Assembly (NCBI RefSeq): GCF_015694525.1
Contig: NZ_JADQDM010000003.1
Span: 124,001 to 188,000 of the forward strand
Reading direction: 5' to 3'
From: Hymenobacter ruricola
GTDB lineage: Bacteria; Bacteroidota; Bacteroidia; Cytophagales; Hymenobacteraceae
Length of the DNA: 64,000 nucleotides
The notes beneath the pieces were generated by a model that saw nothing but the letters and a program-made list of their open reading frames with translations, ran no database searches and was not told the DNA's origin. A program made the position numbers and the translations under genes. This document shows positions 7,175-64,000 of the stretch, one piece after another (position 1 is the stretch's first letter; each line of letters starts with the position of its first letter).

Positions 7175-7220
7175 AAGGCCGTGGAGTAGGATAGGAAAGT
7201 CCGGTGTTGGATGGGTAGAA

Positions 7221-7265
7221 CAAATTACCCGTAGGCAGCGGCCGGAACTGTTCTGGGCTCTCCTG
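7221..7265 (-). promoter_or_regulatory. CAGGA-repeat promoter of rhaI
   Basis: Read on the minus strand, CAGGAG begins at 7265, the second half-site CAGAAC at 7255 (10-bp period), and the -7-like element TAATTTG ends at 7221, 45 bp from the start. It lies 47-91 bp upstream of rhaI. It has the same layout as the promoters of the aldolase gene and rhaT. Confidence 0.55.
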
Positions 7266-7294
7266 TTTGCGGGGAAAAACCTGGCGGCGCGGGC

Positions 7295-7377
7295 GGTAGC
7301 GTGGACTCTGCGAGTCCGCGTATCGTTGTCGTCGTAGGCCGTTCGCTCGGGCGCGGACTCGCAGAGTCCACGCTACC
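7295..7377. repeat. Intergenic palindrome (GGACTC-tgc-GAGTCC family)
   Basis: Perfect 26-bp arms, 7295-7320 against 7352-7377, between the GntR gene (stop at 7379) and rhaI. It ends 1 bp from the GntR stop codon and could serve as its 3' end hairpin. Confidence 0.85.
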
Positions 7378-7378
7378 G

Positions 7379-8389: not shown

Positions 8390-8489
8390 CCCGGGGTGGT
8401 GGGGAATCTGGTGTCGTCGGGTGTCAGGTTTTGCTAAAAAACGGGCCTGACGCAACGAGGCGTGGGAAAAAGGGGAGGAGGCGTCACCC

Positions 8490-8497
8490 CAAATGTA
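8490..8497 (-). promoter_or_regulatory. Consensus -7 element upstream of the GntR gene
   Basis: TACATTTG on the minus strand is a full match to the Bacteroidota -7 consensus TAnnTTTG, 101 bp upstream of the regulator start. No CAGGA repeat accompanies it, suggesting a factor-independent promoter. No clear -33 TTG is seen at the expected distance. Confidence 0.4.
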
Positions 8498-8563
8498 GCT
8501 TTTTCCGCAATGCCAGCGGATAGATAGCTCAATAAAAGCAGAACGTCCTGGCAAGGCAAAAAC

Positions 8564-8660
8564 AGAACGTCATGCAGAGCGCAGCGAAGCATCTTTACCG
8601 CAGTAGTAAATGATTACTTCCTGCGGGCAAGATGCTTCGCTGCGCTCTGCATGACGTTCT
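8564..8660. repeat. Intergenic palindrome (GAGCGCAGCGA family), 32-bp arms
   Basis: Perfect inverted repeat, 8564-8595 against 8629-8660, just downstream of the aldolase/dehydrogenase stop. It shares GAGCGCAGCGAAGCATC with the element at 50498-50592. Confidence 0.85.
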
Positions 8661-8682
8661 ACTTGTTCGTCATGCTGTTCGC

Positions 8683-47999: not shown

Positions 48000-48788
48000 T
48001 CAAGCGTTGGCCAGGGCGCGGTCGAGGTGCACGTAGCCGCCGTCGATGTGCAGAATCTGGCCGGTGGTGTGGCTGCTGCGGTGGGAGAGCAGGAAGGCCG
48101 TGGTGTTGGCCAGCTCCTCGGCGGTGGTCATGCGGTTGCCGAGCGGAATTTTGCTGGTGATTTCGCGCAGCTTTTCCTCGGGGTTGGGCAGGGTCTGAAT
48201 CCAGGTTTCGTAGGCGGGCGTCCAGCATTCGGCCACCATCACGGCGTTCACGCGGATGCCGTACTTGAGCAGCTCCACGGCCCACTCGCGGGTGAGGGCG
48301 TTGCGGGCGCCGTTGGCGGCGGCGTAGGCGGAGGTGTTGCCCTGGCCGGTTTCGGCGGTTTTGGAGGTGATGTTGACGATGGCGCCCTGCGACTTTTTCA
48401 GCTCGGGCAGCGCGTGGTGGGCCATGAGGTAGTAATGCACCACGTTGCGGTGCAGGCTCTGCATGAAGCCCGCGTAGTCGCCGCTTTCCAGGCCCACGCC
48501 GTCGTTCACGCCGGCGTTGTTCACCAAGCCGTCGATGCGGCCAAACTGCGCGACGACGGCCTGCACGGCACGGGCGCACTCGTCGGGTTCGGATAACTCG
48601 GCAGCTACCTGCCAGGCCTGGCCGCCAGCGGCTGCAATGGATACTACGGTTTGCTGGTTATCGGCTTCGTTGCGGCCCACGATGACCGGAATGGCGCCCT
48701 CCTGGGCCAGCACGCGCGAGATGCCTTCGCCGATGCCCTTGGCCCCGCCCGTGACGATGATGACCTTGTGTTGAAGCTGCAAATCCAT
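48000..48788 (-). CDS. SDR-family dehydrogenase, L-fucose dehydrogenase-like, atypical active site
   Basis: A 262-residue short-chain dehydrogenase, by context probably oxidising L-fucose (or a related sugar) to the lactone. It has TGGAKGIG (nucleotide loop), NNAG and the catalytic serine in NITSKT (S142). The usual Tyr-x-x-x-Lys is Y155-A-A-A-N159: the codon is AAC, so the lysine is replaced by asparagine. The following segment ARNALTREWAVELLKYGIRV is well conserved, so the gene does not look decayed. Start at ATG giving MDLQLQHKVI. It sits 12 bp after the amidohydrolase gene. Confidence 0.8.
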   Translation of the reverse strand: MDLQLQHKVIIVTGGAKGIGEGISRVLAQEGAIPVIVGRNEADNQQTVVSIAAAGGQAWQVAAELSEPDECARAVQAVVAQFGRIDGLVNNAGVNDGVGLESGDYAGFMQSLHRNVVHYYLMAHHALPELKKSQGAIVNITSKTAETGQGNTSAYAAANGARNALTREWAVELLKYGIRVNAVMVAECWTPAYETWIQTLPNPEEKLREITSKIPLGNRMTTAEELANTTAFLLSHRSSHTTGQILHIDGGYVHLDRALANA

Positions 48789-48799
48789 GCGAATGGGGA

Positions 48800-49630
48800 T
48801 TATAGATGGTAGAAAGCCACGGCGTTGTCGCCCCAGAACCCGGCCTGCTCGGCGGCGGAAAAGGGTTTCATGTAGTCTTCCAACATGCCCAGTGCCCGGC
48901 TGTAGCCGCCGGCCACGTTGCACACCGGCCAGTCAGACCCGAACATCAACCGCCCGGGCCCGAAGGCATCAAAAGCGGCGTCCAGATACGGCCGAAAATC
49001 GGCTGGTTGCCAATGCTGCCAGTCGGCTTCCGTCACCAGTCCCGATACTTTGCAACTCACGTTTTCGTGCGCGGCCAGCGCCTGCAAGTCCCGGCGCCAC
49101 GGCTCCATTTCGCCCGCCTTGATGAGGGGCTTGGCCAGGTGGTCGAGCACGAAGGGCTGGTTTGGAAAGGCGGCTGCCAGTTCGGCGGCGTAGCCCAGCT
49201 GGTCGGGAAAAATCAAGACGTCGTAAGTGAAGCCGTGCGCGGCCAGTGCGCCGATGCCTTGCCGAAAATTGGGCTTCAGCATCAGGGCACGGTCGGCTTC
49301 GCCTTGCAGCACGTGCCGGAAGCCTTTCAGCTTCTCGAACCGGCTGTAGTAAGCCAGTCGCTCGGCCACGTTTTGCGCTTGCAAATCAACCCAGCCCACC
49401 ACGCCTCGGATGAAGTCGTGCGCGGCGGCATTGGCTAGCTGAAACTCGTTCTCGGCTTCGGTCTGGTCAGATTGCACCGCCACGCAGCCGTCGAAGCCGT
49501 GCTGCTGCAGAATGGGCGCCAAATCCGCCGGCAAAAAGTCGCGCCGGATGGTGGCCATGTCGTCGCTTATCCAGGCGTCGCGCACGGCATCGAACCGCCA
49601 GAAGTGCTGGTGGGCGTCAATTCTGGCCAT
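48800..49630 (-). CDS. Amidohydrolase family 2, L-fuconolactonase-like
   Basis: A 276-residue TIM-barrel metal hydrolase of the amidohydrolase-related family that opens sugar lactones such as L-fucono-1,4-lactone or L-rhamnono-lactone. It starts MARIDAHQHFW with the HxH metal motif. It has FVLDHLAKP and GSDWPVCNVAGGY with the catalytic aspartate near the C-terminus. It overlaps the FAH gene by 14 bp and is followed 11 bp later by the SDR gene, a tight operon. Lactone type is inferred from neighbours. Confidence 0.85.
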   Translation of the reverse strand: MARIDAHQHFWRFDAVRDAWISDDMATIRRDFLPADLAPILQQHGFDGCVAVQSDQTEAENEFQLANAAAHDFIRGVVGWVDLQAQNVAERLAYYSRFEKLKGFRHVLQGEADRALMLKPNFRQGIGALAAHGFTYDVLIFPDQLGYAAELAAAFPNQPFVLDHLAKPLIKAGEMEPWRRDLQALAAHENVSCKVSGLVTEADWQHWQPADFRPYLDAAFDAFGPGRLMFGSDWPVCNVAGGYSRALGMLEDYMKPFSAAEQAGFWGDNAVAFYHL

Positions 49631-50474
49631 AGGCTTTCACGGTTTGGCGCGAGGTGCCCAGGCCGGTGATGCCCAGCTCCACCACGTCGCCGGGCTTCAG
49701 GTACACGGGCGGCTTCAGGCCCAGGCCCACGCCGGCGGGCGTGCCCGTCGAGATGATGTCGCCGGGCAGCAGCGTCATGAACTGGCTGAGGTAGGAAATC
49801 AGGAAGGGAATCCGGAAAATGAGGTTGGCCGTGGTGCCGTCCTGCATCATCTGCCCGTTCACGCTCAGCCAGAGGCGCAGGTTGTCCACGTCGCCCACCT
49901 CGTCGGGCGTGGCCAGGAAGGGGCCCACCGGCGCGAAGGTGTCGCAGCCCTTGCCCTTGTCCCAGGTGCCGTGGCGCTCCAGCTGAAACTCGCGCTCCGA
50001 CACGTCGTTGTGCAGCGCGTAGCCGGCGATGTACTCGTGGGCGTCGGCCTCGTCCACGTAGCTGGCCCGCTTGCCTATGACGACGGCCAGCTCCACTTCC
50101 CAGTCGGTTTTCACCGAGTTTTTGGGAATCACCAGGTCGTCGTTCGGGCCCACGTAGGCCGTGGTCGATTTCATGAACAGCACCGGCTCGGGCGGCGGGG
50201 TGGCGCCGGTTTCGCGGGCGTGGTCGGCGTAGTTCAGCCCGATGCAGAGCAGCTTGGACGGCCGGGCCACCGGCGGGCCCAGCCGCTCGCCGGCCGGGAT
50301 TTCGGGGAGCGTGCCGTCGTTCGCTTGCAGAAACTGGGCGAGGCGCGCGAGGCCGTCGGTGGCAAAAAAGGCTTCGTTGTAGTCTTCGCCAAAAGCCGAG
50401 GCGTCGTAGCGCCGGTCGTGGAGGATGACGCCGGGCTTTTCCTGGCCGGGCTGGCCGTAGCGGATGAGTTTCAT
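49617..50474 (-). CDS. Fumarylacetoacetate hydrolase family protein, 2,4-diketo-3-deoxy-fuconate hydrolase-like
   Basis: A 285-residue FAH-family metal-dependent C-C hydrolase. In the oxidative fucose pathway this enzyme cleaves 2,4-diketo-3-deoxy-L-fuconate to pyruvate and L-lactate. It has the family motifs CIGLNYADHARETG, DWEVELAVVIGKR (metal ligand region), GKGCDTFAPVGPFL and ISTGTPAGVGLG. I start at the ATG giving MKLIRYGQPGQ; the frame upstream runs into a palindrome. Ureidoglycolate lyase or fumarylpyruvase are alternative labels in this family. Confidence 0.85.
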   Translation of the reverse strand: MKLIRYGQPGQEKPGVILHDRRYDASAFGEDYNEAFFATDGLARLAQFLQANDGTLPEIPAGERLGPPVARPSKLLCIGLNYADHARETGATPPPEPVLFMKSTTAYVGPNDDLVIPKNSVKTDWEVELAVVIGKRASYVDEADAHEYIAGYALHNDVSEREFQLERHGTWDKGKGCDTFAPVGPFLATPDEVGDVDNLRLWLSVNGQMMQDGTTANLIFRIPFLISYLSQFMTLLPGDIISTGTPAGVGLGLKPPVYLKPGDVVELGITGLGTSRQTVKAYGQN

Positions 50475-50497
50475 GGGGATGTTCTGGGTTGGTGTGA

Positions 50498-50592
50498 GAA
50501 CGTCATGCCGAGCGCAGCGAAGCATCGTTACCTCGGAAGTAAATAATTACGCTGCTCGGTAAAGATGCTTCGCTGCGCTCGGCATGACGTTC
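50498..50592. repeat. Intergenic palindrome (GAGCGCAGCGA family), 29-bp arms
   Basis: Perfect inverted repeat, 50498-50526 against 50564-50592, between the two genes of the fucose-type run. Nearly the same arms as at 8564-8660. Confidence 0.85.
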
Positions 50593-51557: not shown

Positions 51558-53369
51558 TTACATCATGGGGTCGAAGCTGCCGCCCCAGCCCTTGTTCTGC
51601 TGGATTTGGGGGTCGTTGTCGATGGCGGCCTGCGGAATGGGGAAGAAGTAGTAGTTGGCGTCCCACTTGATGCCGGTCGTCGAGATGGGCGTCGTTTCCA
51701 GCGTCTTGGACGTTATGGTGAAGTAGTTGGTGTACACGTCGTCCAGGTTCCGGGTGTCGCGCGTGGTGGCGAAATCAGCCGGCGCGGTGGTGCTCAAGGT
51801 GATGGTTTTGCCGGTGCGCTTGAGGCCGTTGAGGCTTTCCATCTTGCGCCAGCGGCGCAGGTCCCAGAAGCGCTTGCCCTCAAAAGCCAGCTCCAGCTGC
51901 CGCTCGTAGAGGATGGCGTCGAACATCTCGGTGCGGGTCATGTTGGGTTTGAGGCCGTAGAGCTGGTCGGCGCCTGGCTCGATGCCCGCCCGTAGCCGGA
52001 TGGCTTTCAGTTCGGTGTACGCTTCGTTGAGCTTGTTCACGCCGCAGGCGCTTTCCGCCAGGTTCAGCAGCACTTCGGCGTAGCGGATTTCAATCCAGTC
52101 GGTGCCCAGGTACTGTACTTCGCTGGCCGACGCCGTGGGGTTGATGGCCTTGCGGGTGTAGAAGCCGGTGTTGGTAGAGCCGCCGGTTTCGACCGTGCTG
52201 CCGTTGCGGATGTACGTCCAGAGGCGGTAGCCGGTGTTGCCGTTCAGGGGCCAGGTAGAGCCGTTGTAGGCAATGGTTTTGTCGAAACGCGGGTCGCGGT
52301 TTTTGTAAAACAGCTGGTCGGTGTAGGCGTATTTGGTCGACTCGTTGCGCTTCTTGCCGTCCAGCATGGGGAAGGCCTGCACCATTTCCCAGGTGGGCTG
52401 GTTCTGGCCGCCGCCGGTGCCGTTGGCGGCGGGGCGGGTGGAGTTGTCGTACTGGTTGTTGCGCTTCAGCTGGTCGCCGGTGGCGGTGTTGTAGCTGGTC
52501 ACAAACACCGCTTCCGGGTTGCCCACTTCCTGAAACCAGAGCTGGTCGAAGGACGTGTGCAGGCGGTAGCCGTTGGCCAGCAGCGTGGCTTTGGCCTGCA
52601 CGTTGGCGTCGTAGGCAGCCTGCCACTTGTCGGTGGTGGTAAACTGGGGGCTGGCGGCGTACACCAGCACCCGGCCTTTGAGGGCCAGGGCGGTGCCTTT
52701 GTTCACGCGGCCCCAGTCGGCGTTGGCCGTCCATTTGGGGGGCAGCGTCTGGAAGGCCGAATCCAGGTCGGCCACGATGGCGGCGAAGGTTTCGGCGGTG
52801 GTGTTGCGCGGCAGGTAGGTCAGGTCCCGCGCTTCGGGCCCTACGCCGTTGAGGGGGCTCATCACCAGCGGCACGCCGCCGTACTGCCGCACGAGCTCGA
52901 AGTAGCGCCAGGCCCGGAAAAACTGGGCCTGGCCCCGCAGGCGGCCTTTGGTGCCGGCGGGCAGCGGGCCGTTGCGCACGTTGCTCAGGAACATGTTGAT
53001 GGTCCTGATTTTGCCGTAGTTGTTGGTGGCGCTCAGGCCGGTGCCAAACTCACCGCCCACGTCCGACACGAGCAGCGTGCCGGCCAGTAGGCGGTTGCTG
53101 GAGTAGGCCTCGTCGGTCAGGCCGGCCACGTTGAAGTTGCTGGCGTTGTTGTTGGCCGTGTTGATGGTGGCGTTGATGATGGGGTCGCCCCACTCCGGCA
53201 GGTTCTGGTTGTAAATGAAGCTCAGGTTGAGGTTGGCCAGCGTGGAGTCTTTGAACACGAGCTCCGTGGTGGACTGCCCCAGGTTCTCCTTGTCCAGCAC
53301 TTTCTCGCAGCTGCTCAGCCCGAACGCGGAGCCGATGGTGGCGAGGGCGATGTAATGAAATGGTTTCAT
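51558..53369 (-). CDS. SusD/RagB-family glycan-binding lipoprotein (second pair)
   Basis: A 603-residue surface lipoprotein. MKPFHYIALATIGSAFGLSS precedes a lipobox cysteine at residue 21. SusD features are AQFFRAWRYFELVRQYGGVPLV near residue 150, WIEIRYAEVLLNLAESACG and the C-terminal ERQLELAFEGKRFWDLRRW and FPIPQAAIDNDP. It is longer than the first SusD and not closely similar in the N-terminal half, so it probably binds a different glycan. It lies 18 bp behind its SusC partner and upstream of the fucose-type genes. Confidence 0.95.
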   Translation of the reverse strand: MKPFHYIALATIGSAFGLSSCEKVLDKENLGQSTTELVFKDSTLANLNLSFIYNQNLPEWGDPIINATINTANNNASNFNVAGLTDEAYSSNRLLAGTLLVSDVGGEFGTGLSATNNYGKIRTINMFLSNVRNGPLPAGTKGRLRGQAQFFRAWRYFELVRQYGGVPLVMSPLNGVGPEARDLTYLPRNTTAETFAAIVADLDSAFQTLPPKWTANADWGRVNKGTALALKGRVLVYAASPQFTTTDKWQAAYDANVQAKATLLANGYRLHTSFDQLWFQEVGNPEAVFVTSYNTATGDQLKRNNQYDNSTRPAANGTGGGQNQPTWEMVQAFPMLDGKKRNESTKYAYTDQLFYKNRDPRFDKTIAYNGSTWPLNGNTGYRLWTYIRNGSTVETGGSTNTGFYTRKAINPTASASEVQYLGTDWIEIRYAEVLLNLAESACGVNKLNEAYTELKAIRLRAGIEPGADQLYGLKPNMTRTEMFDAILYERQLELAFEGKRFWDLRRWRKMESLNGLKRTGKTITLSTTAPADFATTRDTRNLDDVYTNYFTITSKTLETTPISTTGIKWDANYYFFPIPQAAIDNDPQIQQNKGWGGSFDPMM

Positions 53370-53387: not shown

Positions 53388-56300
53388 TTAGAAGCCGACG
53401 TTCAAACCCAGCGAGAGCGAGCGCAGCGTGGGGTACGCGTCGAAGGCGCCCGAATAGGTTTTGTAGCTGTAAGGGTTGTAAAAGTTCACGGGGTTGATGG
53501 CCGTGAAGAACACGCGCACCGAGCCCACGCCCACCCGTTCGGTGAGGGAAGCGGGCAGGCTGTAGGAGATGTTGGCGTTGCGCATGCCCGCCGAGAAGGA
53601 GTTGCGGAACCAGAACGCCGAGTTCACGTCATAGGTGGAGCCGTAGGCCGGCGCGGGGTACGCCGCGTTCGGGGTTTCGGGCGTCCAGTGGTCGGCCCAG
53701 AATTCGGGCCGGTTCGAGGTGGCCGTGCCCTGCTTGCGGGCCCCTGATTCCACCATGTCCTGGCCGCCCCAGGACATGCCCATCGTGGCCGAGATGCTCA
53801 GCGACTTGTAGCTGATGGTGGGGTTGAAACCGATGCTGTAGTGGTTGCTGGCCTTGGGGGTCAGGAAAGTCTGGTCCACGTCCGTGATTTTGCCGTCCGG
53901 GCCGGTGTAGTTGCCCGACGCGTCTTTGGGGCCGCGGATGTCCCGGTAGTAGAGCATGCCGGGCTTGGGGGCCGTCCCGAACAGGGTGTAGGTTTTGTCG
54001 TAGCCGGGGTTGGCCTGGAAGTAGGCGTCGATGTCGGCCTGGCTCCGGAACATGCCCTGGTAGTCGTAGCCCACCACGCCCATATCGGTCGAGCGGCCCG
54101 TGGGGTCGTCCCACTGGCCGAGCTGGCCGCGGCTCACGTCCACTTTCACCTGCTTGTTGTCGCTCCAGGAGAAGAAGGTGTTCACGCGGAACCCGAGGTC
54201 CTTGGTGATTTTGTCGCCGTAGCCCACCGACACTTCGTAGCCGAAGCCGTCCACCGACGAGAAGTTTTCCGAGGGCAGCGCGGCCCCAATCACCAGCGGG
54301 GCCGAGTTCACCAGCTGAGTGAGCATGTTGTAGCGGTGGTCGTAGAAGCCGTCCACGGTCAGCGAGAGGCGGTTGCCCAGGAACTGGGCGTCGATGCCGG
54401 CGTTGTACTTGGTGTCGTCGTCCCAGCGGGCGGCGCGGTTGGCCATGGCGTTGTTGGCCGCAAACACCAGCGACCGGTCGCCGTTGCCGCCGAACACGGC
54501 GCCCTGGCCGGTTTTCAGGCCGTAGCTCGTCTGCCAGTTGTAGGGCTTGGTGGCGTCGCCGCCCAGGAAGCCCAGCGAAGCGCGCAGCTTCAGCAGGTTC
54601 ACAAACGACACGTTGTCCTTAAAGAACCGCTCTTCCGACATTACCCAGCCCACCGACACCGACGGGAACAGGCCCCAGCGGTACTCCGGCGCGAAGTTGG
54701 TGGAGGCGTCGTAGCGCAGCGTAGTTTCCAGCAGGTACTTGCCGTCGTAGTCGTAGTTGAAGCGGCCGGCGTAAGACAGGGTGCCCGCCTCGCTGGCGGT
54801 TTCCGTGGTGGTTTGGGCGCCGGTGGCAAAGTTCTGGTAGTCGAGGTTGGGCACATCCTGGGCAATGATGGCACCCTCGGCCATGGCCGCCACGCCGTCC
54901 TGCATGGTTTCCGACTGCTCAAACAGGGCAATGGCCGACACGTGGTGCTTACCAAACTGCCGGTCGTAGCTCAGGTAGCCGTTCAGCTGGTAGCTGTCGA
55001 AGGTGGTCGGGTTCAGGCGCACCCGGTCGCCGTTGTTCAGCACGATGGGCGCGCCGCTCACGTCGCCGCCGTAGATGTGCTTGTTGGTGCCCAGCATGGT
55101 CAGGCGGTACACGTTGTACTTCGTGCCGTACTGCTTGCCGAAGCCGTTGTCCATGGTTTTGCCAAACAGCACCCGCGCTTTCAGGCCCTTGATGAAGGGC
55201 AGCTCGTACTCGGCGCTGGCCGTCACGTTCAGGCCGGTGTTGCGGGTCGAGGTGTAGTTGTCCGAGTTCTGCACCTCAAAAAAGTGGAAGGCGTCCACCG
55301 TGTTCAGGTTGGCGCCGTTGGCGTTGGTCAGCAGCGTCGGCAGGCCGTTCACGTACGTGGGCACCCACTGCGGCGTGTAAAGCAGGCCCTTCATGTCGTT
55401 TTCCACGTTTTCACCGCCCTGCTTGAGGTAGTACATCCGCTTCTGCGACAAGTCGCCGCTCACCGACAGCGCCACTTTCAGGCCGCGGGCCACCTTCACG
55501 TCGGTGCTGGCCCGGTAGGTCCACTTGTTGGCGTTGATGTTGTCGAAGTTGGCGTTCTGGTAGTTGTAGCTGATGCCGGCGAAGTAGGTCACCCGGTCGG
55601 TGCCGCCGCTCATGTTCAGGGCGTGGCGCGTCACGGTGGCCGGTTTCCAGGCCGTTTTCAGCCAGTCGGTGTTGTTGTTGGCAAAATAGGCCAGCTCGTC
55701 CGGCGCGTAGTACGCCGTGTTGGTGGGGGCCACGTTGTTGCCGCGGTTGATGTCATTCAGGTAGGTGGCCTGCTGCACGGCATTCATCATTTTGGGCAGC
55801 TGCACCGCGTCGGTCACGCCCACCGAGCCGCTGTAGCTGAACTTGGGCGCACCCAGCTGGCCGCGCCGGGTGGCCACCAGCACCACGCCCTGGGCGCCGC
55901 GGGCACCGTAAATGGCCGCCGCCGCGTCCTTCAGCACCGAAATGGATTCTACTTCTGACTGGTCGAGCACGTTGAAGTCGTCCTCCGTCCGCACCACGCC
56001 GTCGATGACGAACAAGGGGCGCAGCGTGCCGCCGTCCTTCGACAGGATGATGGGGTTGCGCACCGTGATGGCGCCCGGGTCGCCGGGGCGGCCGGTGCCG
56101 CCCGCCACGCCCACGCCCGGCAGCTGGCCCGACAGTGCCGTGGAGAGGCTGCCTACCGGCAAATCCTGAATTTTCTGCATGTCGACCACCGCCACGGCCC
56201 CGGTCAGGGTGGCGCGGGTCTGCGTGCCGTAGCCCACCACCACCACTTCTTCCAGGGCGGCGTTGTCGTCTTCGAGGGCCACTTCCAGCGTGGTGCGGCC

Positions 56301-56651
56301 GTTCACGGCCACTTCCTGGCTCTTAAAGCCGATGAAGCTGAAAATCAGCGTCTCGTTGCCGGTGGGCAGGTTGAAGTGGAAGGTGCCGTCGGGGCCCGAG
56401 CTGGTGCCGCTCTTGGTGCCCTTGATGAGCACCGTCACGCCGGGCAGCGGGTTGCCCTTCGAGTCTTTCACCAGGCCGGTGAAGCCCACGGTGATGCCTT
56501 TGCCGGACTTGGTTTTGACCGGCGGGCCAGCCACGGCGGCGGCCTGAGCAGGGTCGGTGCCCAGCAACACGCCGCCCACAAGCAGCGCGCAGGCTAGCCG
56601 GGTGGGCGCCCCCGCGGGCAGGGGCAGTTGGGCTCGTAACGATTGGGACAT
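53388..56651 (-). CDS. SusC/RagA-family TonB-dependent transporter (second pair)
   Basis: A 1087-residue outer-membrane transporter with a signal peptide (RLACALLVGGVLLGTDPAQA), a carboxypeptidase-like domain (FTGLVKDSKGNPLPGVTVLI), the signature LEEVVVVGYGTQTRATLTGA, a plug domain (PLFVIDGVVRTEDDF, SVLKDAAAAIYGARGAQG) and a barrel ending SLGLNVGF. It should import oligosaccharides with the SusD partner. Substrate is unknown; the genes around it suggest deoxy-sugar- or apiose-containing pectin fragments. No CAGGA-type promoter is seen upstream, so it may be under different control from the first pair. Confidence 0.95.
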   Translation of the reverse strand: MSQSLRAQLPLPAGAPTRLACALLVGGVLLGTDPAQAAAVAGPPVKTKSGKGITVGFTGLVKDSKGNPLPGVTVLIKGTKSGTSSGPDGTFHFNLPTGNETLIFSFIGFKSQEVAVNGRTTLEVALEDDNAALEEVVVVGYGTQTRATLTGAVAVVDMQKIQDLPVGSLSTALSGQLPGVGVAGGTGRPGDPGAITVRNPIILSKDGGTLRPLFVIDGVVRTEDDFNVLDQSEVESISVLKDAAAAIYGARGAQGVVLVATRRGQLGAPKFSYSGSVGVTDAVQLPKMMNAVQQATYLNDINRGNNVAPTNTAYYAPDELAYFANNNTDWLKTAWKPATVTRHALNMSGGTDRVTYFAGISYNYQNANFDNINANKWTYRASTDVKVARGLKVALSVSGDLSQKRMYYLKQGGENVENDMKGLLYTPQWVPTYVNGLPTLLTNANGANLNTVDAFHFFEVQNSDNYTSTRNTGLNVTASAEYELPFIKGLKARVLFGKTMDNGFGKQYGTKYNVYRLTMLGTNKHIYGGDVSGAPIVLNNGDRVRLNPTTFDSYQLNGYLSYDRQFGKHHVSAIALFEQSETMQDGVAAMAEGAIIAQDVPNLDYQNFATGAQTTTETASEAGTLSYAGRFNYDYDGKYLLETTLRYDASTNFAPEYRWGLFPSVSVGWVMSEERFFKDNVSFVNLLKLRASLGFLGGDATKPYNWQTSYGLKTGQGAVFGGNGDRSLVFAANNAMANRAARWDDDTKYNAGIDAQFLGNRLSLTVDGFYDHRYNMLTQLVNSAPLVIGAALPSENFSSVDGFGYEVSVGYGDKITKDLGFRVNTFFSWSDNKQVKVDVSRGQLGQWDDPTGRSTDMGVVGYDYQGMFRSQADIDAYFQANPGYDKTYTLFGTAPKPGMLYYRDIRGPKDASGNYTGPDGKITDVDQTFLTPKASNHYSIGFNPTISYKSLSISATMGMSWGGQDMVESGARKQGTATSNRPEFWADHWTPETPNAAYPAPAYGSTYDVNSAFWFRNSFSAGMRNANISYSLPASLTERVGVGSVRVFFTAINPVNFYNPYSYKTYSGAFDAYPTLRSLSLGLNVGF

Positions 56652-56693: not shown

Positions 56694-57395
56694 TTATTGG
56701 GGAGCGGGCGTGCCGGCGCCGGCGGCTTTGCGGGCCGCGATGCGGGCCTGCCAGTCCTTACCGGCCTGGTTCATGTCAATGCCGGCGGCCGAGAGGTAGT
56801 TGTTAATCCGGCCTTTGTACTTGCCAAACCAGGCGTGCTTTTGCTCGGAGGTGCCGCCGTCCATGGCGTGCTCGCGGGCTTCCGTCAGCCAGGCCAGCAT
56901 CTGGGCGCGCTGCTCGGCGGTGAGGTTGGGCAGCATGTCGTTGTAGGCCGTCATCGTGAGGGGCAGCACGCCGTAGGTCATGCCGTCCTTCACCTGCTCA
57001 ATCTGGGCCGGCGTGAGGCGGCGGCTTAGCTTCTTGAGGTACTGCGGGTGCAGCTTGGCCAGGGCCGCTTCGGTGTCGGCGTCCACCCGGGCGAGTTCGG
57101 CCTTGGTGGCGTCGGTGGCGGGCTGGGCTTTGAGGGCGGCCTTGCGGGTCTTTTGCTGCTCGTAGATGTCGTTGAGCTGGCGGTACTGGTCGGCAATGAG
57201 GTCGCGCACCAGCACCGAGTCCTTGTCTTTCAGGCCGTCGATTTTGGCCACAATCTTGGCCGCGCGCTCCGTGATGGTGCGCGTGTAGGCGGCTTCTTTG
57301 GTTTCGGCCGGCGCGGGCGCCTGCGCCGATGCCTGGCCGAGGGCAGTTGCAGCAAACAGACCCGTTAAAAACAGGCCCCGGATTGTTTTATTCAT
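56694..57395 (-). CDS. DUF3826 domain protein, exported
   Basis: A 233-residue protein with a signal peptide (MNKTIRGLFLTGLFAATALG, cleaved near ASAQA). It is mostly helical and charged (ERAAKIVAKIDGLKDKDSVL, RRLTPAQIEQVKDGMTYGVL, LTAEQRAQMLAWLTEAREHA), ending KYKGRINNYLSAAGIDMN. I recognise it as DUF3826, a family of unknown function that accompanies pectin-type PULs in Bacteroidota. It is 42 bp upstream of the second SusC gene and probably heads that operon. A binding or scaffolding role in the periplasm is speculation. Confidence 0.82.
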   Translation of the reverse strand: MNKTIRGLFLTGLFAATALGQASAQAPAPAETKEAAYTRTITERAAKIVAKIDGLKDKDSVLVRDLIADQYRQLNDIYEQQKTRKAALKAQPATDATKAELARVDADTEAALAKLHPQYLKKLSRRLTPAQIEQVKDGMTYGVLPLTMTAYNDMLPNLTAEQRAQMLAWLTEAREHAMDGGTSEQKHAWFGKYKGRINNYLSAAGIDMNQAGKDWQARIAARKAAGAGTPAPQ

Positions 57396-57691: not shown

Positions 57692-59017
57692 CTAGCTCCC
57701 GGGCACCGCCGCCAGCGGCTGTGGCACTGCTGCCGCCGCGGCAGCAGTGGCGGGCCGTTTGCGCCAGTAGTTGGCCAGAATGGAGCCCGAAATGTTCATC
57801 CACGGGCTAAACACGGCGGCGGGCAGGCCCACGGTGCCCAGCTTGCCCATGCTGCCGGCCAGCCCGGAGGCCATGCCGCCGTTTTGCAGCCCCACTTCAA
57901 AGGCCACCGTGCGGGCCGAATTCACGTCGAGCCCAAACAGCCGGCTCAGCCAGTAGCCGAAGAAATAGCCGGCCGCGTTGTGCAGCACCGACGCCAGAAA
58001 CAGCAAAAAGCCCACCCGCAGCAAATTGTCGTGGCCGGCCGCCGTGGTCACGGCCGTGAAGTAGATGATGCCGAACATGGACAGGTAGGGCATCAGGCCG
58101 TCGAGCCCGGGCCGGCGCCGGGCCACCTGGTGGTAGAGCACGCCCACCACCAGCGCGGCCAGCAGGAAGCTGAAAATCTCCAGCATCTGCCGCACCTCGG
58201 CGCCGGCGAAGGTGCGCTCCAGCCAGGCCCACAGGCCCAGCGGCAGCGCCGCCAGCCACCCCGCGCCCAGCCCGGCCAGCCGGCCCACCGTGCGCCGGCC
58301 CCGCCCGGAAGCGGTTTTGAGGTAGTCGTGCAGCAGTGCGGCCAGTATGGGCACGATGACGATTTTGATGATTTCCATCATCATGTTCACGAAATGGACC
58401 TCGATGAGCGTGCCGGCCAGCAGCTTCAGCAGCAGGGGCGTGAGGAAGGGCGCCACCAGCGTGGCCATGGCCGTCACCACCACCGACAGCACCATGTTGG
58501 CCCGGGCCAGGTACACCATCACGTTGGAAGCCAGCCCGCTGGAGCAGGAGCCGATGAGGATGATGCCGGCCGCGATTTCGGGCTCGAAGTGAAACACCCG
58601 GGTGAGCGCAAAGCCCATGAGCGGCATCACCGAAAAGTGGCACAGCAGGCCAATGAGCACGCCTTTGCCGGTGCTGGCCAGCCCCGCAAAGTCCCGAATG
58701 CTCATCTGAATGCCCATGCCAAACATCACCAGCTGCACCACCACCAATATCAGCCATTTGTGGCGCAGGTCCACGCCGCCCCACTGCCGGAACGCGCCGG
58801 GGTACACCAGGCCCGCCACCACGGCCACGACTATCCAGGCCGTGTATTGGTAGCTGCGCAGCCCGGGCACGGCCTTGAAACCCAGCGCCAGGGCCACCGC
58901 CCCGGCCACGGCCGCCGGCTGCCACAGAGCCGCCTCGTGCCGGCTAAGGCCCAGCAGCAGCGCCGCCGCGGCCAGGCCGCTGAAAACCAGGCAAAGCTGA
59001 AAGACTCGGTTCATCAT
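57692..59017 (-). CDS. Bile acid:sodium symporter (BASS) family transporter
   Basis: A 441-residue inner-membrane protein with about ten helices (VVQLVMFGMGIQMSIRDFAG, GVLIGLLCHFSVMPLMGFAL). Family marks are GSCSSGLASNVMVYLARAN at the broken-helix sodium site and EVGLQNGGMASGLAG near the C-terminus. BASS proteins carry organic anions with sodium. Here, behind the acid-sugar kinase, RuBisCO-like and racemase genes, the likely cargo is a sugar acid rather than bile acid. That is inference. An extra N-terminal helix pair of about 80 residues makes it longer than minimal BASS proteins. Confidence 0.85.
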   Translation of the reverse strand: MMNRVFQLCLVFSGLAAAALLLGLSRHEAALWQPAAVAGAVALALGFKAVPGLRSYQYTAWIVVAVVAGLVYPGAFRQWGGVDLRHKWLILVVVQLVMFGMGIQMSIRDFAGLASTGKGVLIGLLCHFSVMPLMGFALTRVFHFEPEIAAGIILIGSCSSGLASNVMVYLARANMVLSVVVTAMATLVAPFLTPLLLKLLAGTLIEVHFVNMMMEIIKIVIVPILAALLHDYLKTASGRGRRTVGRLAGLGAGWLAALPLGLWAWLERTFAGAEVRQMLEIFSFLLAALVVGVLYHQVARRRPGLDGLMPYLSMFGIIYFTAVTTAAGHDNLLRVGFLLFLASVLHNAAGYFFGYWLSRLFGLDVNSARTVAFEVGLQNGGMASGLAGSMGKLGTVGLPAAVFSPWMNISGSILANYWRKRPATAAAAAAVPQPLAAVPGS

Positions 59018-59071
59018 GGGACGCGGGAAATGAAAAATGGTAGGATGCTACAAGCCGCCGGAAGCCGTCGG

Positions 59072-59734
59072 CTATGCCAGCTCCGCGGCTAGATGCCGGA
59101 TGGCAATGCCGGGGCTGGCCAGGATGGGCACCGGGCGGTCGGCGGGGGCCAGCGCATCCACCACCCGTGCCATCGAGGCCTGGGCCAGCACCACCACGTC
59201 TACCTTGGCCACCAACTCTTTGAGCGCCGCCGCCACAATGGCGTCGTGCCGGGCGCCGTCGCCGCTCATCAGGGCCTCGAAGGCGCCGGCGCAGAGCACG
59301 GAAGTCAGCTCGATTTCGCGGCCGGCCCGGGCGGCGCGGCGCTGCACCAGGTCGGCGGTGGGGACGAGGGTGGTGGGAAGCGTGGCAATGACGCCGATGC
59401 GCCGGCCGGTGCGCACGGCCTGGTCGGCCATGGGCTGGTCGACGCGCAGTACCGGCACCCCGCTGAGCCCGGCCGCCTGCTCCACCGCCGCGCCGATGGA
59501 CGAGCAAGTGACCAGCACGTAATCGGCCCCACCGGCTTCGGCCGAAGTCACGTAGCCGACCACGCGTCGGGCGACGGCGGGCGTCAGGGCTCCCTCGCGG
59601 GTAATGGTTCGGACCAGGCTGTCGTCCACGATGTTGAAGACCTGCACGCTGGGCAGGTGCTCGGCGCAAAGCTGCTGAAACACGGGCACCAGCGTGGCGG
59701 AGGTGTGGATGAGGCCGAGGGTTTTGGTGGGCAT
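59072..59734 (-). CDS. Asp/Glu racemase superfamily protein with a single active-site cysteine
   Basis: 220 residues from the ATG giving MPTKTLGLIHTSATL. The Asp/Glu/hydantoin racemase fold is indicated by GADYVLVTCSSIGAAVEQA (first cysteine, C77), GRRIGVIATLPTTLVPT and DVVVLAQASMARV. In true racemases a second catalytic cysteine is expected near that last motif; here it reads LAQAS, so a classic two-base racemase mechanism is unlikely. An isomerase, lyase or decarboxylase role on a sugar-acid intermediate is more plausible. It lies between the kinase and the BASS transporter in the same orientation. Confidence 0.8.
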   Translation of the reverse strand: MPTKTLGLIHTSATLVPVFQQLCAEHLPSVQVFNIVDDSLVRTITREGALTPAVARRVVGYVTSAEAGGADYVLVTCSSIGAAVEQAAGLSGVPVLRVDQPMADQAVRTGRRIGVIATLPTTLVPTADLVQRRAARAGREIELTSVLCAGAFEALMSGDGARHDAIVAAALKELVAKVDVVVLAQASMARVVDALAPADRPVPILASPGIAIRHLAAELA

Positions 59735-59773
59735 ATTAATGATTTTAAGAAGAAATAGCGTCTGGACTGACTT

Positions 59774-59848
59774 GTAGCGTGGACGCTGCGAGTCCGCGCC
59801 CGTTTGGTTCCGTTTCGACAATGCGCGGACTCGCAGCGTCCACGCTAC
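59774..59848. repeat. Intergenic palindrome (GGACGC-tgc-GAGTCC variant)
   Basis: Perfect 26-bp arms, 59774-59799 against 59823-59848, between the racemase-like and kinase genes. Same family as the elements at 4423 and 7295. Confidence 0.85.
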
Positions 59849-59857
59849 CGCCTAGTG

Positions 59858-61201
59858 CTAACCAGCAGGCATCCGGCCTTCCAGTAGCACGCCGAAATAC
59901 TCCGGCGCGCCTACCTGGCCGCCTTTGAAGTTGACTTCGAGGCCGTGCAGCGGCGAGCCGGGCGCGGAGGCGCGGCACAGCGGCGCGCCGGGGTAAAACG
60001 GCGCTATCATTTCCACCGCTTCAATGCCCATGGCACGGGCGGCGTAGCTGGAAGTGTCGCCGCCGGCCACCACCACGCGGCGCACGCCGGTTTGCCGCAC
60101 AGCCTCGCGGGCGATGCGGCCCAGCGCCGTACCGAGAGCTTCGGCCGAAAGGCCCGGCGCGGGGCTGCCGGTGCCGCCGTTGGTGTGGACGATGACGCTA
60201 CGGCCCTCCAGCAAGTAAGCAACGGCCGGCTGCTGCCAGGCCGCGAGCGAATCCGGCGAAGCGTTGCCACCCGCGGGCCTCGCCGCATCCAGCACCAGTT
60301 CCGCAAACCCGTTGGCCTGGGCCCAGGCCACCTGCCCGGCCGTGACGGGTGAGCAACTGCCCGACACCACCAGCAGCGGCGCGGCGCGGCCGGGCGCGGG
60401 CCAATCGGATGCGGCCTTGAGGGTGCCATTTTGTTGCCATAGCTGCCCCAGCGCCATTTCAACGCCCGACGAGCCCACCGAAAACAGCGGGCCTGACGCG
60501 CCAGCGTAGCCGTCAATGGCCGCCCCGATGCCGAGCAACTGCTCTTCATAAAGTGCATCGAAGAGGATGACTTCGGCGCCGGCCTGCACCTGCGCGGCTA
60601 TTGCTTCCTGTATTTCGGCCAGCGGCCGGCTGATGTGCAGGAGGTCGAGCAGACCGGTTTGGACGTGGGTTTGGCGGGCGAGGTGCCGGCGCAGGTCGCT
60701 TTCGTCGGCGGGCGTGGTGGGGTGCCGGCTCATCGACGGGTGCCGGTCGAGCCGGAAGATGCCGCCGTTGCTGCCGATGCCCAGGCGCGCAAACAGGTTG
60801 CCAAAGGCGCAGTAGCGGCCCAGCGGCGGCGCGGCCACCAGCAGCGGCACAAAGACACCGGGAAACACTTGCCGTCCCACTTCCACCGCCCGCCCAATGC
60901 TGCCAATGGTAGACGACGAATCAAACGTGGAGCACACTTTATAATGCACGTGCCGCGGCCCGAGCGCCCGCAGCTGCGCAAAGGCCGGCTCCAAAACGGC
61001 CTGCATGGCCTCCGGCGCCATGGCGCGGGTCAGGCCGGCCACGCCAATGGCGTCCAAGCCCGGGTAGGCGGCGAGCTGGGCGGGCGTGGGCGGCTCGATG
61101 AATAAGGCGGTGCGCGCGCCGGCTCGGCTCAGGAATTCGAGCGCGTCGGTGCTGCCAGTGAAATCGTCGCCGTAATAGGCCAGGAGGAGCTGCTTGCTCA
61201 T
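59858..61201 (-). CDS. Four-carbon acid sugar kinase family protein (DUF1537)
   Basis: A 447-residue kinase of the DUF1537 family, members of which phosphorylate threonate, erythronate, 3-oxo-tetronate or 3-oxo-isoapionate. The N-terminal domain has YYGDDFTGSTDALEFLSRAG. The C-terminal nucleotide-binding domain has VVSGSCSPVTAGQVAWA, VVVAGGDTSSYAARA and the ending LEVNFKGGQVGAPEYFGVL. Its ATG overlaps the stop of the RuBisCO-like gene by 4 bp (ATGA), so the two are translationally coupled. That pairing matches the known kinase plus RuBisCO-like decarboxylase steps of D-apiose catabolism (OiaK and OiaX), the best hypothesis for its substrate. Confidence 0.88.
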   Translation of the reverse strand: MSKQLLLAYYGDDFTGSTDALEFLSRAGARTALFIEPPTPAQLAAYPGLDAIGVAGLTRAMAPEAMQAVLEPAFAQLRALGPRHVHYKVCSTFDSSSTIGSIGRAVEVGRQVFPGVFVPLLVAAPPLGRYCAFGNLFARLGIGSNGGIFRLDRHPSMSRHPTTPADESDLRRHLARQTHVQTGLLDLLHISRPLAEIQEAIAAQVQAGAEVILFDALYEEQLLGIGAAIDGYAGASGPLFSVGSSGVEMALGQLWQQNGTLKAASDWPAPGRAAPLLVVSGSCSPVTAGQVAWAQANGFAELVLDAARPAGGNASPDSLAAWQQPAVAYLLEGRSVIVHTNGGTGSPAPGLSAEALGTALGRIAREAVRQTGVRRVVVAGGDTSSYAARAMGIEAVEMIAPFYPGAPLCRASAPGSPLHGLEVNFKGGQVGAPEYFGVLLEGRMPAG

Positions 61202-62442
61202 TGGCCGCCGAATTTTTGAACTGCGGCCGCGAATTCCGGGTGCCGGGCGGCGGTTTCGGTCAGGCTGCGGCCGTCCACGGCGCCTTGCCAGGCTTGCTGC
61301 AACGCCTGCACCCCGGCGGCCGGGCCCATCGGGTGGGCCAGGATGCCGCCGCCGGCCATGTAAAGCAAATCGGTGGTGCGGGTGCGGCGGTAGGTTTCAA
61401 AGGCCTGCCCGCCCCACTGGCCCGACGACACCACCGGCAGCACCGAGTAGCCGCCCAGTAGCGGCGTTTGACAAGCTTCGATGGACGCCACCACGCTGTC
61501 GTCCGACTCCCAGAATTTGTTCTGGATGCCGTTGACGTGCAGCTGGTCGACGCCCGCCAGCCGCCACAGCTTCTGGTAGGCGCGGAAATCGATGCCCAGC
61601 AGCGGGTGGCGCGTGAGCATGCCCCAGCCGTTGCGGTGCCCGTGGATGGCCAGGGCCCGCTGCTCGCAGATTTTGCGGGTGCCGGCCAGCCCCACGCTGT
61701 TGATGCTGACCATGGCGCAGGTGCCGCCGGCGCGCACCACGTACTCGTAGCGGCGCAGCATGTCGTCGATTTCCCCGCTGAGGTTGAAGGCATACATTAC
61801 CTTTTTGCCGGTGCGGTCGGCGTGGCGGTTGACGACGGCCATTACGGCATCCACGCGGGCTTCGAAGGGCGAATTGGCGGCGGCCATCTGCAGCTCGTCG
61901 TCTTTCACAAAGTCGATGCCGGCTTCGGCCAGCGTGCCCACCAACTCCGCCGTTTGCCCGGGCGTGAGGCCGATGCTGGGCTTGATGATGGTGCCGATGA
62001 GCGGCCGCCCCTGCACGCCCGTCAACTCGCGGCAGCCCGCCACGCCGAACGCCGGCCCGGCAAAGTGCTGCGCGTACGAAGCGGGCACGTCAATGTCCAT
62101 CAGCTTCAGCCCCGTAAACTGCCGGATTTCATACAGATTGCCTTGCAGCGTAGACACCAGCAGCGGCAGGTTGTGCCCAAAATTCTCCACCGACCACGAC
62201 ACCCGCACCCGCGCCCGGTGGTAGCGCCCGCTGCTGCTCTCCGCGCCGGGAATGGCTGGCTGGCTCACGGTTTCCAGGTGCTCTACCGATTCCACGCGGG
62301 CGGCGAAGCGCTGCTTGAGCTCGGCGGTTTCGCCGGGCACCGCCACGAACGTGCCCGAGGACTGCTCGCCCGCCAGCACGGCCGCCGCGTCTTCGGGGCG
62401 GAAAGGGGTTTCGATGTAGTAGGTGGCGGTGATGCGTTCCAT
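61198..62442 (-). CDS. RuBisCO-like protein (form IV), candidate acid-sugar phosphate decarboxylase
   Basis: 414 residues homologous to the RuBisCO large subunit but not part of carbon fixation. The N-terminal domain begins MERITATYYIETPF, followed by a TIM barrel. It keeps a lysine in GTIIKPSIGL (K154), the carbamylated-lysine motif K180-D-D-E with metal ligands, the histidine in IHGHRNGWG (H269) and a lysine in NGIQNKFWE (K309). The pocket therefore looks competent for enolate chemistry. Coupled to the DUF1537 kinase by an ATGA overlap, it probably decarboxylates or hydrolyses the phosphorylated 3-oxo acid, as OiaX or OiaT do for 3-oxo-isoapionate 4-phosphate. Substrate is unproven. Confidence 0.88.
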   Translation of the reverse strand: MERITATYYIETPFRPEDAAAVLAGEQSSGTFVAVPGETAELKQRFAARVESVEHLETVSQPAIPGAESSSGRYHRARVRVSWSVENFGHNLPLLVSTLQGNLYEIRQFTGLKLMDIDVPASYAQHFAGPAFGVAGCRELTGVQGRPLIGTIIKPSIGLTPGQTAELVGTLAEAGIDFVKDDELQMAAANSPFEARVDAVMAVVNRHADRTGKKVMYAFNLSGEIDDMLRRYEYVVRAGGTCAMVSINSVGLAGTRKICEQRALAIHGHRNGWGMLTRHPLLGIDFRAYQKLWRLAGVDQLHVNGIQNKFWESDDSVVASIEACQTPLLGGYSVLPVVSSGQWGGQAFETYRRTRTTDLLYMAGGGILAHPMGPAAGVQALQQAWQGAVDGRSLTETAARHPEFAAAVQKFGGQ

Positions 62443-62526: not shown

Positions 62527-63429
62527 TCAGCTCTGGAAAATCGACTTCAAATAGGCCGCGTTGGCCCCGAAGTTCTTCTTCACGTTGCGGGCGTCGTTGG
62601 CGTCGCGCGAGCGTTCAATCACCAGCCAGCCTTCCCAGCCCATGTCGGCCAGGGTTTGCTTCACCTTGTTCATGTCCAGGCGGGTGTTGTTTTGCAGCCA
62701 CACGCCGTCCTCGTCGGTGGCGTGCATCTGGCAGATGCGCTTGCGGCCCAGGGTTTTCAGCTCCTGGTGCAGGTCGCGGCCTTCCTTGAGCGGGTTCGAG
62801 AAGTTGAAGTAAATCTGGATGTGTTTCGAGCCGATTTCGCGCAGCAACTCCACCTCGCCTTTGGCATCCAGCGCCGTTTCGATGCCGATGACGACGTCCG
62901 CTTTCTGGGCCATTTTGCCCACCACTTTCAGCCGCTCCACGATGGCGGGCCGCAGTTCGGGGTTCTTGCGCAGGTCGCCCTGCGTGCCGAGGGGCAGAAA
63001 AGCAACCTTCACGTTCAGTTGCTTCATGGTGTCGATGCAGTCCTGAATCATGCGCTCATAAGTCGGGCGCGTGGCGAAGGACTGGGCGTAGAAACCGGTC
63101 ATGGCCAGCGAGCAGATTTCCAGGTTCAGCTCCTTGGCCTTGTCGATGAACTGCTGGCGGATTTCGGGCTTGGCAAGCTGATTGTCGAAGGTTTCGCGCT
63201 GGCCCAGGCCGCCCATGTCGATTTCCACGCCGTCGGCCCCGATGTCCTTAGTAAGCTGCAACGCGCCCAGCTTCTGGCGCTTCAGAATCATCAAATCAAC
63301 CACCGCCACTTTGTAGGTCAGCTTCTTTTTGGTGGGTACAAGGGCATTGGCCCAATTGGGCAGGAGCAGGCCGCCGGTTAATAAGGCGCTGGTGGAAAGG
63401 AAATTGCGGCGGGAAAGGGGTTGGGGCAT
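62527..63429 (-). CDS. Sugar phosphate isomerase/epimerase-like TIM-barrel protein, Tat-exported
   Basis: A 300-residue xylose-isomerase-like TIM barrel. The N-terminus SRRNFLSTSALLTGGLLLPN is a twin-arginine signal, so the protein should act folded, with cofactor, in the periplasm. Barrel motifs include ADGVEIDMGGLGQRETF, VIGIETALDAKGEVELL, HIQIYFNFSNP and CQMHATDEDGVW, which supply Glu, Asp and His metal ligands. Exported members of this family are frequent in Bacteroidota carbohydrate loci; activities are mostly unknown. The ATG at the signal peptide is chosen over a longer frame that runs through a palindrome. It is upstream of the RuBisCO-like gene. Confidence 0.82.
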   Translation of the reverse strand: MPQPLSRRNFLSTSALLTGGLLLPNWANALVPTKKKLTYKVAVVDLMILKRQKLGALQLTKDIGADGVEIDMGGLGQRETFDNQLAKPEIRQQFIDKAKELNLEICSLAMTGFYAQSFATRPTYERMIQDCIDTMKQLNVKVAFLPLGTQGDLRKNPELRPAIVERLKVVGKMAQKADVVIGIETALDAKGEVELLREIGSKHIQIYFNFSNPLKEGRDLHQELKTLGRKRICQMHATDEDGVWLQNNTRLDMNKVKQTLADMGWEGWLVIERSRDANDARNVKKNFGANAAYLKSIFQS

Positions 63430-63444
63430 AACAAGTTGAACGGT

Positions 63445-63531
63445 GTAGGGGCGGGGCCTGTCCCCGCCCGTCGTTGAGCGAAATCGTTGCAGCGGTGCAG
63501 GCGCCCGGGCGGGGACAGGCCCCGCCCCTAC
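63445..63531. repeat. GC-rich intergenic palindrome
   Basis: GTAGGGGCGGGGCCTGTCCC begins a 26-bp left arm (63445-63470) exactly complementary to 63506-63531. It ends next to the stop of the esterase gene. It is a distinct sequence family from the others. Confidence 0.85.
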
Positions 63532-63532
63532 A

Positions 63533-64000
63533 TCAGGGCCGGTCGGTTCTAAAAGGCCGGGCCGGCAGCCCCGCCGTTGAAAAAAGGTTGGGTTGGGCCA
63601 CTTCGTCCCAGCCGAAGCGCACGGCCGTGGGGTGCGCCACGCCCGGCGCCGACACCAGCACCTGCTGACCCTCGATGCGGGCCTGCGCGGGCACAAACAC
63701 GCCATCCGGGCCGGCAATGACGAAATTCGTCAGCGCCTGGCCGTCTTTGCTGACAAGCGGCGTGGCCGAGGCAAACGAAACCGCGGCCACGTTGCCCTTC
63801 ACTTTCAAGCTGCGGAAAACCGGCCCTTCGGCCACCACGCCGGGCATTTTGTAAGTGTCGGCGAGCGCCAGCAAGGCCAGCCGCCGCCCAATTTCCCACT
63901 TGAAGCCGGGGTGAATGCCGCCTTCGGCGGTGGCCAAATCGGTGGTTTCTATCATGCCCGTGTGCGGCTCTTGCAGCACCGCTGCCTGCGCCTCACGGAA
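63533..64000 (-). CDS. Sialate O-acetylesterase-like protein (C-terminal part, 5' end outside window)
   Basis: The frame is open to the window edge on the minus strand, so only about 155 C-terminal residues are visible. They match SGNH-type sialate/9-O-acetylesterases of Bacteroidota: FREAQAAVLQEPHTGMIETT, then GGIHPGFKWEIGRRLALLAL with the catalytic histidine (IHP), and a C-terminal beta domain (ALTNFVIAGPDGVFVPAQAR, VRFGWDEVAQPNLF). In PULs such enzymes often remove acetyl groups from pectin or xylan rather than sialic acid, which fits here. The catalytic serine lies outside the window. Confidence 0.8.
   Translation of the reverse strand, partial: FREAQAAVLQEPHTGMIETTDLATAEGGIHPGFKWEIGRRLALLALADTYKMPGVVAEGPVFRSLKVKGNVAAVSFASATPLVSKDGQALTNFVIAGPDGVFVPAQARIEGQQVLVSAPGVAHPTAVRFGWDEVAQPNLFSTAGLPARPFRTDRP

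Follow-up and report, generated by a model that had tools for sequence, protein, structure and literature searches.

A conserved four-gene cassette around a RuBisCO-like protein in Hymenobacter ruricola and its probable role in the breakdown of L-aceric acid

The 64,000-nt window of the Hymenobacter ruricola genome analysed here (the whole stretch of DNA, to which positions refer; coordinates beginning with C24 are those of the contig of the window genome) encodes a RuBisCO-like protein (RLP), a DUF1537 kinase, an Asp/Glu-racemase-fold protein (RAC) and a transporter of the BASS family. These four genes form a conserved cassette with its own RLP clade, which is tied to family 127 glycoside hydrolases (GH127) of the BT1003 type and set apart from the apionate genes, the apionate oxidoisomerase ApnO being absent. 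We infer every substrate and chemical step of a pathway in which the cassette would degrade, inside the cell, a branched sugar acid derived from rhamnogalacturonan II (RG-II). The most likely candidate is L-aceric acid, a rare sugar of plants, and we assign this reading a probability of about 0.58. Cleaving enzymes are known for RG-II, a pectin comprising some 13 sugars; a published intracellular route for aceric acid was not among the matches listed in the open-licence literature.

The cassette was followed through 204 genomes of the window's family, 395 genomes sampled from its phylum, and the best 80 of 568 RLP loci in a scan of GTDB contigs (80 further loci). The OiaK-OiaX branch of D-apiose/D-apionate catabolism was reportedly described by Carter et al. 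2018, a paper cited in passages of PMC6302742. Matches to the OiaX model were found in 18/204 family genomes. The order RLP, kinase, RAC, BASS is kept in 17 of 18 loci from the 17 other family genomes and, further afield in the phylum, in all seven loci (7/7), indicating that the four-gene association exceeds chance. In the phylum sample, 125/395 genomes match the OiaX model at E ≤ 0.001, but scores over 490 bits are confined to eight of them, counting the window genome, with the runner-up at 225 bits. The exception among the family loci (L034, G175:C46:51200-71199) has an RLP with only a 74-aa kinase match and neither RAC nor BASS; it is the second RLP copy of its genome and is perhaps decaying.

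A quick tree places the window RLP in a single clade of 59/94 rows with an SH-aLRT support of 100, corresponding to 56 clade loci after subtraction of the window and the duplicates L071 and L072. RLPs shorter than 380 aa were left out of this tree, and L129, a 314-aa piece within a whole cassette, is therefore counted outside the clade. Where the sequence extends 4 kb or more downstream (49 clade loci), kinase, RAC and BASS are present together in 45 cases; L115 and L119 lack BASS, and in L112, L116 and L120 the RAC-BASS pair is placed before RLP-kinase. The original prediction for this DNA had described the RLP and kinase genes as overlapping by ATGA and followed by a racemase-like and a BASS gene beside a SusC/SusD pair, all of which is present. 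It had regarded the latter two genes as additional to a known pair, but the counts above (17/18, 7/7 and 45/49 loci) make them core partners instead. At the residue level, K154, K180, D182 and E183 of the RLP are invariant across 54 clade and 21 other rows. Ten positions in this comparison are clade-specific, including Gln300, a His in 20/21 of the others and located two residues before His302; this pattern is at most suggestive.

By model scores, OiaX is closest to the RLP and OiaK to the kinase, yet neither protein reaches the equivalog threshold. The best NCBIfam model of the RLP is OiaX (3-oxo-isoapionate-4-phosphate decarboxylase, NF042437, 522 bits, curated cut-off 700), followed by type III RuBisCO (237 bits) and two MtnW-type models (173 and 127 bits), and that of the kinase is OiaK (NF042436, 400 bits, cut-off 700), with 3-oxo-tetronate kinase as the runner-up (188 bits). 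RLPs above the OiaX cut-off of 700 were found neither in the family genomes (0/204) nor in the phylum sample (0/395). The D-apiose pair OiaX/OiaK named by the original prediction is thus retained as the nearest pair of models and not as an assignment, both scores lying below their cut-offs, and in the tree the RLP falls into its own clade. In common with OiaK-OiaX, the cassette has an adjoining RLP and DUF1537 kinase, the best-scoring models, the metal-site residues and the proposed type of reaction; it differs in its separate RLP clade, the scores below cut-off, the lack of ApnO and of the apionate lactonase ApnL, the presence of RAC and BASS, and the GH127 neighbour.

An assignment of the RLP as the methionine-salvage enolase MtnW is ruled out by the model scores (173 and 127 vs. 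522 bits for OiaX; 126.5 bits with TIGR03332, below its cut-off of 513.6), in line with the original prediction. The RLP shares its superfamily and metal-site residues with MtnW and RuBisCO, but the scores with these models are low, and the loop-6 lysine of RuBisCO has no counterpart in the RLP aligned to 8dht. Among solved structures, the RLP is closest to 3nwr (406 bits, the next one at 196), which sits on a long branch of the RLP tree where its placement is unsure. For the BASS transporter, the best NCBIfam model is PanS (218 bits, below the cut-off of 400).

The genomic link to aceric acid comes from GH127. Neighbouring genes were clustered for 90 loci (10 of the 25 family and phylum loci and all 80 loci of the GTDB scan), and once two large antisense clusters, which are shadow frames of the RLP, had been set aside, GH127 was the commonest family outside the cassette (25/90 loci). 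Among the 51 clade loci whose upstream sequence reaches far enough, 13 have it directly upstream of the RLP and on the same strand; somewhere in the examined flank it is found in 23/56 clade loci. The GH127 of L084, the only copy compared with this structure, matches 5mqo with 823 bits (next structure 394 bits), an entry that presumably represents BT1003. Passages of PMC5698469 and PMC10850190 describe BT1003 as a hydrolase releasing aceric acid (3-C-carboxy-5-deoxy-L-xylose). When the L084 copy was used as the query, 34 family genomes scored 905–955 bits and the rest at most 378 bits, with the gene of G128 split into two pieces. This BT1003-type GH127 is found in 18/18 RLP genomes of the family vs. 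16/186 others (17 if G128 is counted; Fisher p = 8e-17 or 2e-16) and, at a threshold of at least 800 bits, in 8/8 RLP genomes of the phylum sample vs. 12/387 others (p = 9e-12), all p values being uncorrected for kinship. Both samples together yield 25/25 RLP genomes with a BT1003-type GH127.

Absence of GH127 from the RLP flank rarely means absence from the genome, as 19 of the 21 clade genomes concerned carry a copy scoring at least 630 bits elsewhere. Seven more loci with such flanks fall in the family sample, and this genome-wide check excluded the short loci L078, L079, L096, L104 and L134 and, outside the clade, L121 and L143. Among the outside-clade genomes, 2/29 have this GH127 (L130 and L136), and L127 is ambiguous at 536 bits. 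The locus L130, whose RLP lies outside the clade, has GH2-GH127-RLP-kinase-RAC and no ApnO. Another RLP outside the clade, in L139, has a divergent GH127-like frame directly upstream (8193-9962; 32% identity over 262 aa) and a RAC nearby on the opposite strand.

The apionate genes show the opposite distribution. In the 25 RLP genomes of the two samples, ApnO gave four matches of at most 25.3 bits, none of them convincing, and ApnL gave none (0/25), the latter absence being the weaker since no control genome matched ApnL either; on a single protein beside an RLP outside the clade, the ApnL model does reach 454 bits. The suggestion that the missing apionate genes might lie elsewhere in the genome was therefore not borne out. 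Across 50 further genomes, ApnO occurs in 1/21 of the clade (L115, in two pieces) vs. 19/29 of the others, confirming that the ApnO query works. At the level of loci, neither gene was detected in the clade (0/56), compared with 17/32 (ApnO) and 8/32 (ApnL) of the other loci. Gfo/Idh/MocA genes, for which the original prediction had suggested looking, occur near some related cassettes, but not consistently.

The D-apiose pathway reading of the RLP and kinase is thus only partly supported. As a variant of it, the two enzymes could act on 3-oxo-isoapionate, with RAC or other proteins replacing ApnL and ApnO and BASS importing D-apionate. We consider this variant unlikely, although it would agree with OiaX and OiaK being the best models, with the co-occurrence of RAC and ApnO in L146 and L151, and with the presence of an apiosidase in all 18 family RLP genomes, including that of the window (C24:217012). 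Strong apiosidase matches (PF13204, at least 370 bits) were obtained in 55/204 family genomes, PF13204 membership not implying action on RG-II in every case. Yet none of the 21 family genomes with an apiosidase and no intact BT1003-type GH127 has the RLP, compared with 18 of the 34 that have both, and the variant leaves the GH127 neighbour unexplained. The lack of convincing ApnO or ApnL in the 25 RLP genomes also counts against it.

Moreover, some of these genomes appear to have another route for D-apiose. A transketolase-type D-apiose pathway with the gene names AptA/AptB and AplK is described in passages of PMC13001218, and AptB is found near the cassette in 10/56 clade loci, where the encoded proteins share 45–52% (AptA), 37–43% (AptB) and 33–38% (AplK) identity with those of E. 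coli SE15. True-type AptA (462–479 bits) is restricted to 6/204 family genomes, all of which are RLP-bearing (6/18 RLP genomes). This pathway likewise serves an RG-II sugar and its genes can adjoin the cassette, but it contains neither an RLP nor a DUF1537 kinase. Its genes beside the cassette suggest that apiose is served by a separate route in those genomes. In the window genome, the best AptA match reaches only 192 bits and a two-subunit transketolase was not found, which would leave room for a variant use of apiose there. Taken together, the adjacency of GH127, the L130 case and the apiosidase-only genomes rank aceric acid over apiose as the substrate.

The window genome itself has a BT1003-type GH127 on the same contig (C24:248766-250811; 926 bits with the L084 copy), flanked on one side by GH106 and on the other by an esterase, after which comes a DUF5703 gene. 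The loci L087, L091, L093 and, from Pedobacter sp. Leaf170, L090 all show the arrangement GH106-GH127-[RLP-kinase-RAC-BASS]-esterase-DUF5703. This shared gene order indicates that the operon is present in the window genome minus the cassette, which sits 62 kb away. The interval between the two is an RG-II-type region with an apiosidase (C24:217012), a BT_1020-like propeller, GH141, GH88 and rhamnosidase-like genes. With its BT1003-type GH127, BT_1020-like propeller, GH141, GH106 and apiosidase, it resembles the RG-II degradation loci of Bacteroides thetaiotaomicron, which we take to include BT1003 and BT_1020, and differs from them by the added RLP cassette. The single Bacteroides control genome gave an apiosidase match and no match to the OiaX model.

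Such RG-II-like surroundings would also suit a cassette for a different acidic sugar or oxidation product of RG-II or pectin (Dha, Kdo or a branched aldonate) degraded by the same kinase-decarboxylase logic. BASS points to an acid, and DUF1537-family kinases act on several sugar acids according to their models. Nevertheless, we regard this alternative as improbable, as no other neighbour is as frequent or as closely placed as the BT1003-type GH127, and Dha and Kdo lack the tertiary hydroxy-acid carbon needed by the OiaX reaction. Aceric acid also agrees with the option, left open by the original prediction, that the substrate is another branched or oxidised sugar acid.

In the proposed aceric acid pathway, the BT1003-type GH127 would free aceric acid outside the cytoplasm and BASS would import it. 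The imported aldose would then be isomerised to a ketose, a step perhaps catalysed by RAC, which would move the carbonyl to C2, next to the C3 that bears both OH and COOH. Moving the carbonyl of aceric acid from C1 to C2 creates a ketone beside such a carbon, as in 3-oxo-isoapionate. Phosphorylation of O1 by the DUF1537 kinase and decarboxylation of the resulting beta-keto acid by the RLP would yield a 5-deoxy-pentulose 1-phosphate. The sole difference between the proposed RLP substrate and 3-oxo-isoapionate 4-phosphate, the substrate of OiaX, is the replacement of CH2OH by CH(OH)CH3. Finally, a class II aldolase could split the product into dihydroxyacetone phosphate and acetaldehyde, but the case for this step is weak; the aldolase family PF00596 is present in 25/25 RLP genomes and also in 12/14 controls, making its presence uninformative.

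RAC is the least conventional part of this scheme. Its AlphaFold2 model (pLDDT 95.9) has the fold of Asp/Glu racemases, as indicated by Foldseek matches to racemases with TM-scores of 0.6–0.8. Profile alignment places Cys77 and Gln185 where hydantoin/allantoin racemases have their two cysteines, and both residues are invariant in 60/60 RACs. They were likewise invariant in an earlier alignment (42/42) of the window RAC with 41 of the 48 RACs from L076–L155, the dropped ones being included in the 60-RAC check. RAC thus shares the fold and first catalytic cysteine with the Asp/Glu racemase superfamily (hydantoin, aspartate and glutamate racemases and arylmalonate decarboxylase) but has Gln in place of the second cysteine, which makes a two-base racemase unlikely. 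We propose a one-base sugar-acid isomerase because aceric acid, as an aldose, is already at the right oxidation level; this assignment is tentative, with chances somewhat below even.

Alternatively, in the same aceric acid pathway, the ketose might be made by a general isomerase of the cell, with RAC following the RLP and epimerising or isomerising its phosphorylated product. A step shared between pathways would account for RAC occurring both without ApnO (in the clade) and with it (L146 and L151). Outside the clade, RAC was identified in L130, L139, L151 and L146 (the last by BLAST, as clustering had missed it) and was not seen in most OiaX-type loci, which speaks against this placement, and the neighbourhood analysis revealed no other conserved isomerase within the cassette. 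We therefore consider a position of RAC after the RLP rather unlikely. The acidobacterial RLP loci L146 (6632-8797) and L151 (7421-8494) mix the RAC and ApnO gene sets. As for the self-contained import-isomerise-phosphorylate-decarboxylate route for L-aceric acid, with the RLP as decarboxylase and the one-cysteine, racemase-fold RAC as isomerase, we hold it to be possible, though the odds are against it in this complete form.

Several observations weigh against aceric acid as the substrate or against the role proposed for RAC. We know of no isomerase activity for the racemase fold, and the finding of RAC beside ApnO in L146 and L151, whose genomes were both unmatched by the GH127 query, calls for caution over its role. 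The RLPs of L077 and L122 have no kinase, RAC or BASS nearby, the draft genomes of L088 and L118 contain the cassette without a BT1003-type GH127, and in the window genome this GH127 does not adjoin the cassette. Beyond the family sample, intermediate GH127 scores (530–720 bits) make this class less sharp. The apiosidase accompanies the RLP just as GH127 does (18/18 family RLP genomes), and kinship as well as general RG-II use inflate the co-occurrence counts. In addition, 16 family genomes have GH127 without the RLP; in these, aceric acid may go unused or be handled by another route. Genomes with GH127 and apiosidase and no RLP are G012, G015, G025, G038, G047, G057, G060, G100, G110, G122, G126, G196, G197, G198, G201 and G202.

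In the window, the cassette genes are arranged in the order RLP, kinase, RAC, BASS, all on the minus strand (Table 1), followed downstream by a DUF3826 gene and then the SusC/SusD pair. Upstream of the RLP are genes for a TIM-barrel protein, a sialate-type esterase, a DUF6298 protein and a pectate lyase (esterase and lyase named by eye). The DUF3826 gene is outside the core cassette, and so is the TIM-barrel gene, which forms one unit with the cassette in many related loci and is absent from it in others.

Table 1. Cassette genes and adjoining features, with positions in the 64,000-nt window
Feature	Position	Strand	Family or basis
RLP (RuBisCO-like protein), OiaX-like, proposed decarboxylase	61198..62442	-	Pfam PF00016+PF02788
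DUF1537 kinase, OiaK-like	59858..61201	-	PF07005+PF17042
RAC, Asp/Glu-racemase-fold protein	59072..59734 (open frame to 59821; likely ATG 59734)	-	PF01177
BASS-family transporter, proposed sugar-acid importer	57692..59017	-	PF01758
TIM-barrel protein (AP_endonuc_2), signal-like N-terminus	62527..63717	-	PF01261
DUF3826 gene, between cassette and SusC/SusD	56694..57395	-	PF12875
SusC	53388-56651	-	named by eye
SusD	51558-53369	-	Pfam

Further genes of sugar metabolism are encoded on the minus strand of the window. At 48000-50525, an L-fucose dehydrogenase (419 bits, cut-off 300) is found beside L-fuconolactonase-like and 2,4-didehydro-3-deoxy-L-rhamnonate hydrolase-like proteins, each below its cut-off; these L-fucose oxidation genes are consistent with RG-II or another fucose-bearing substrate. 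The genes at 4512-10791 encode an FGGY kinase, a TIM-barrel isomerase, a GntR regulator and an aldolase II/short-chain dehydrogenase fusion, a set which we take to be an L-rhamnose operon and whose aldolase could serve the final step of the proposed pathway. In addition, a 2400-aa open frame, also on the minus strand, spans positions 34004-41206.

If the aceric acid reading is correct, the four genes would supply a cellular route for aceric acid. It would add a new substrate to the RuBisCO superfamily and, should RAC be the isomerase, a new reaction to the racemase fold, giving the conserved RAC a job and the BASS transporter a sugar-acid role. It would also caution against labelling such RLPs as OiaX in genomes without the apionate genes.

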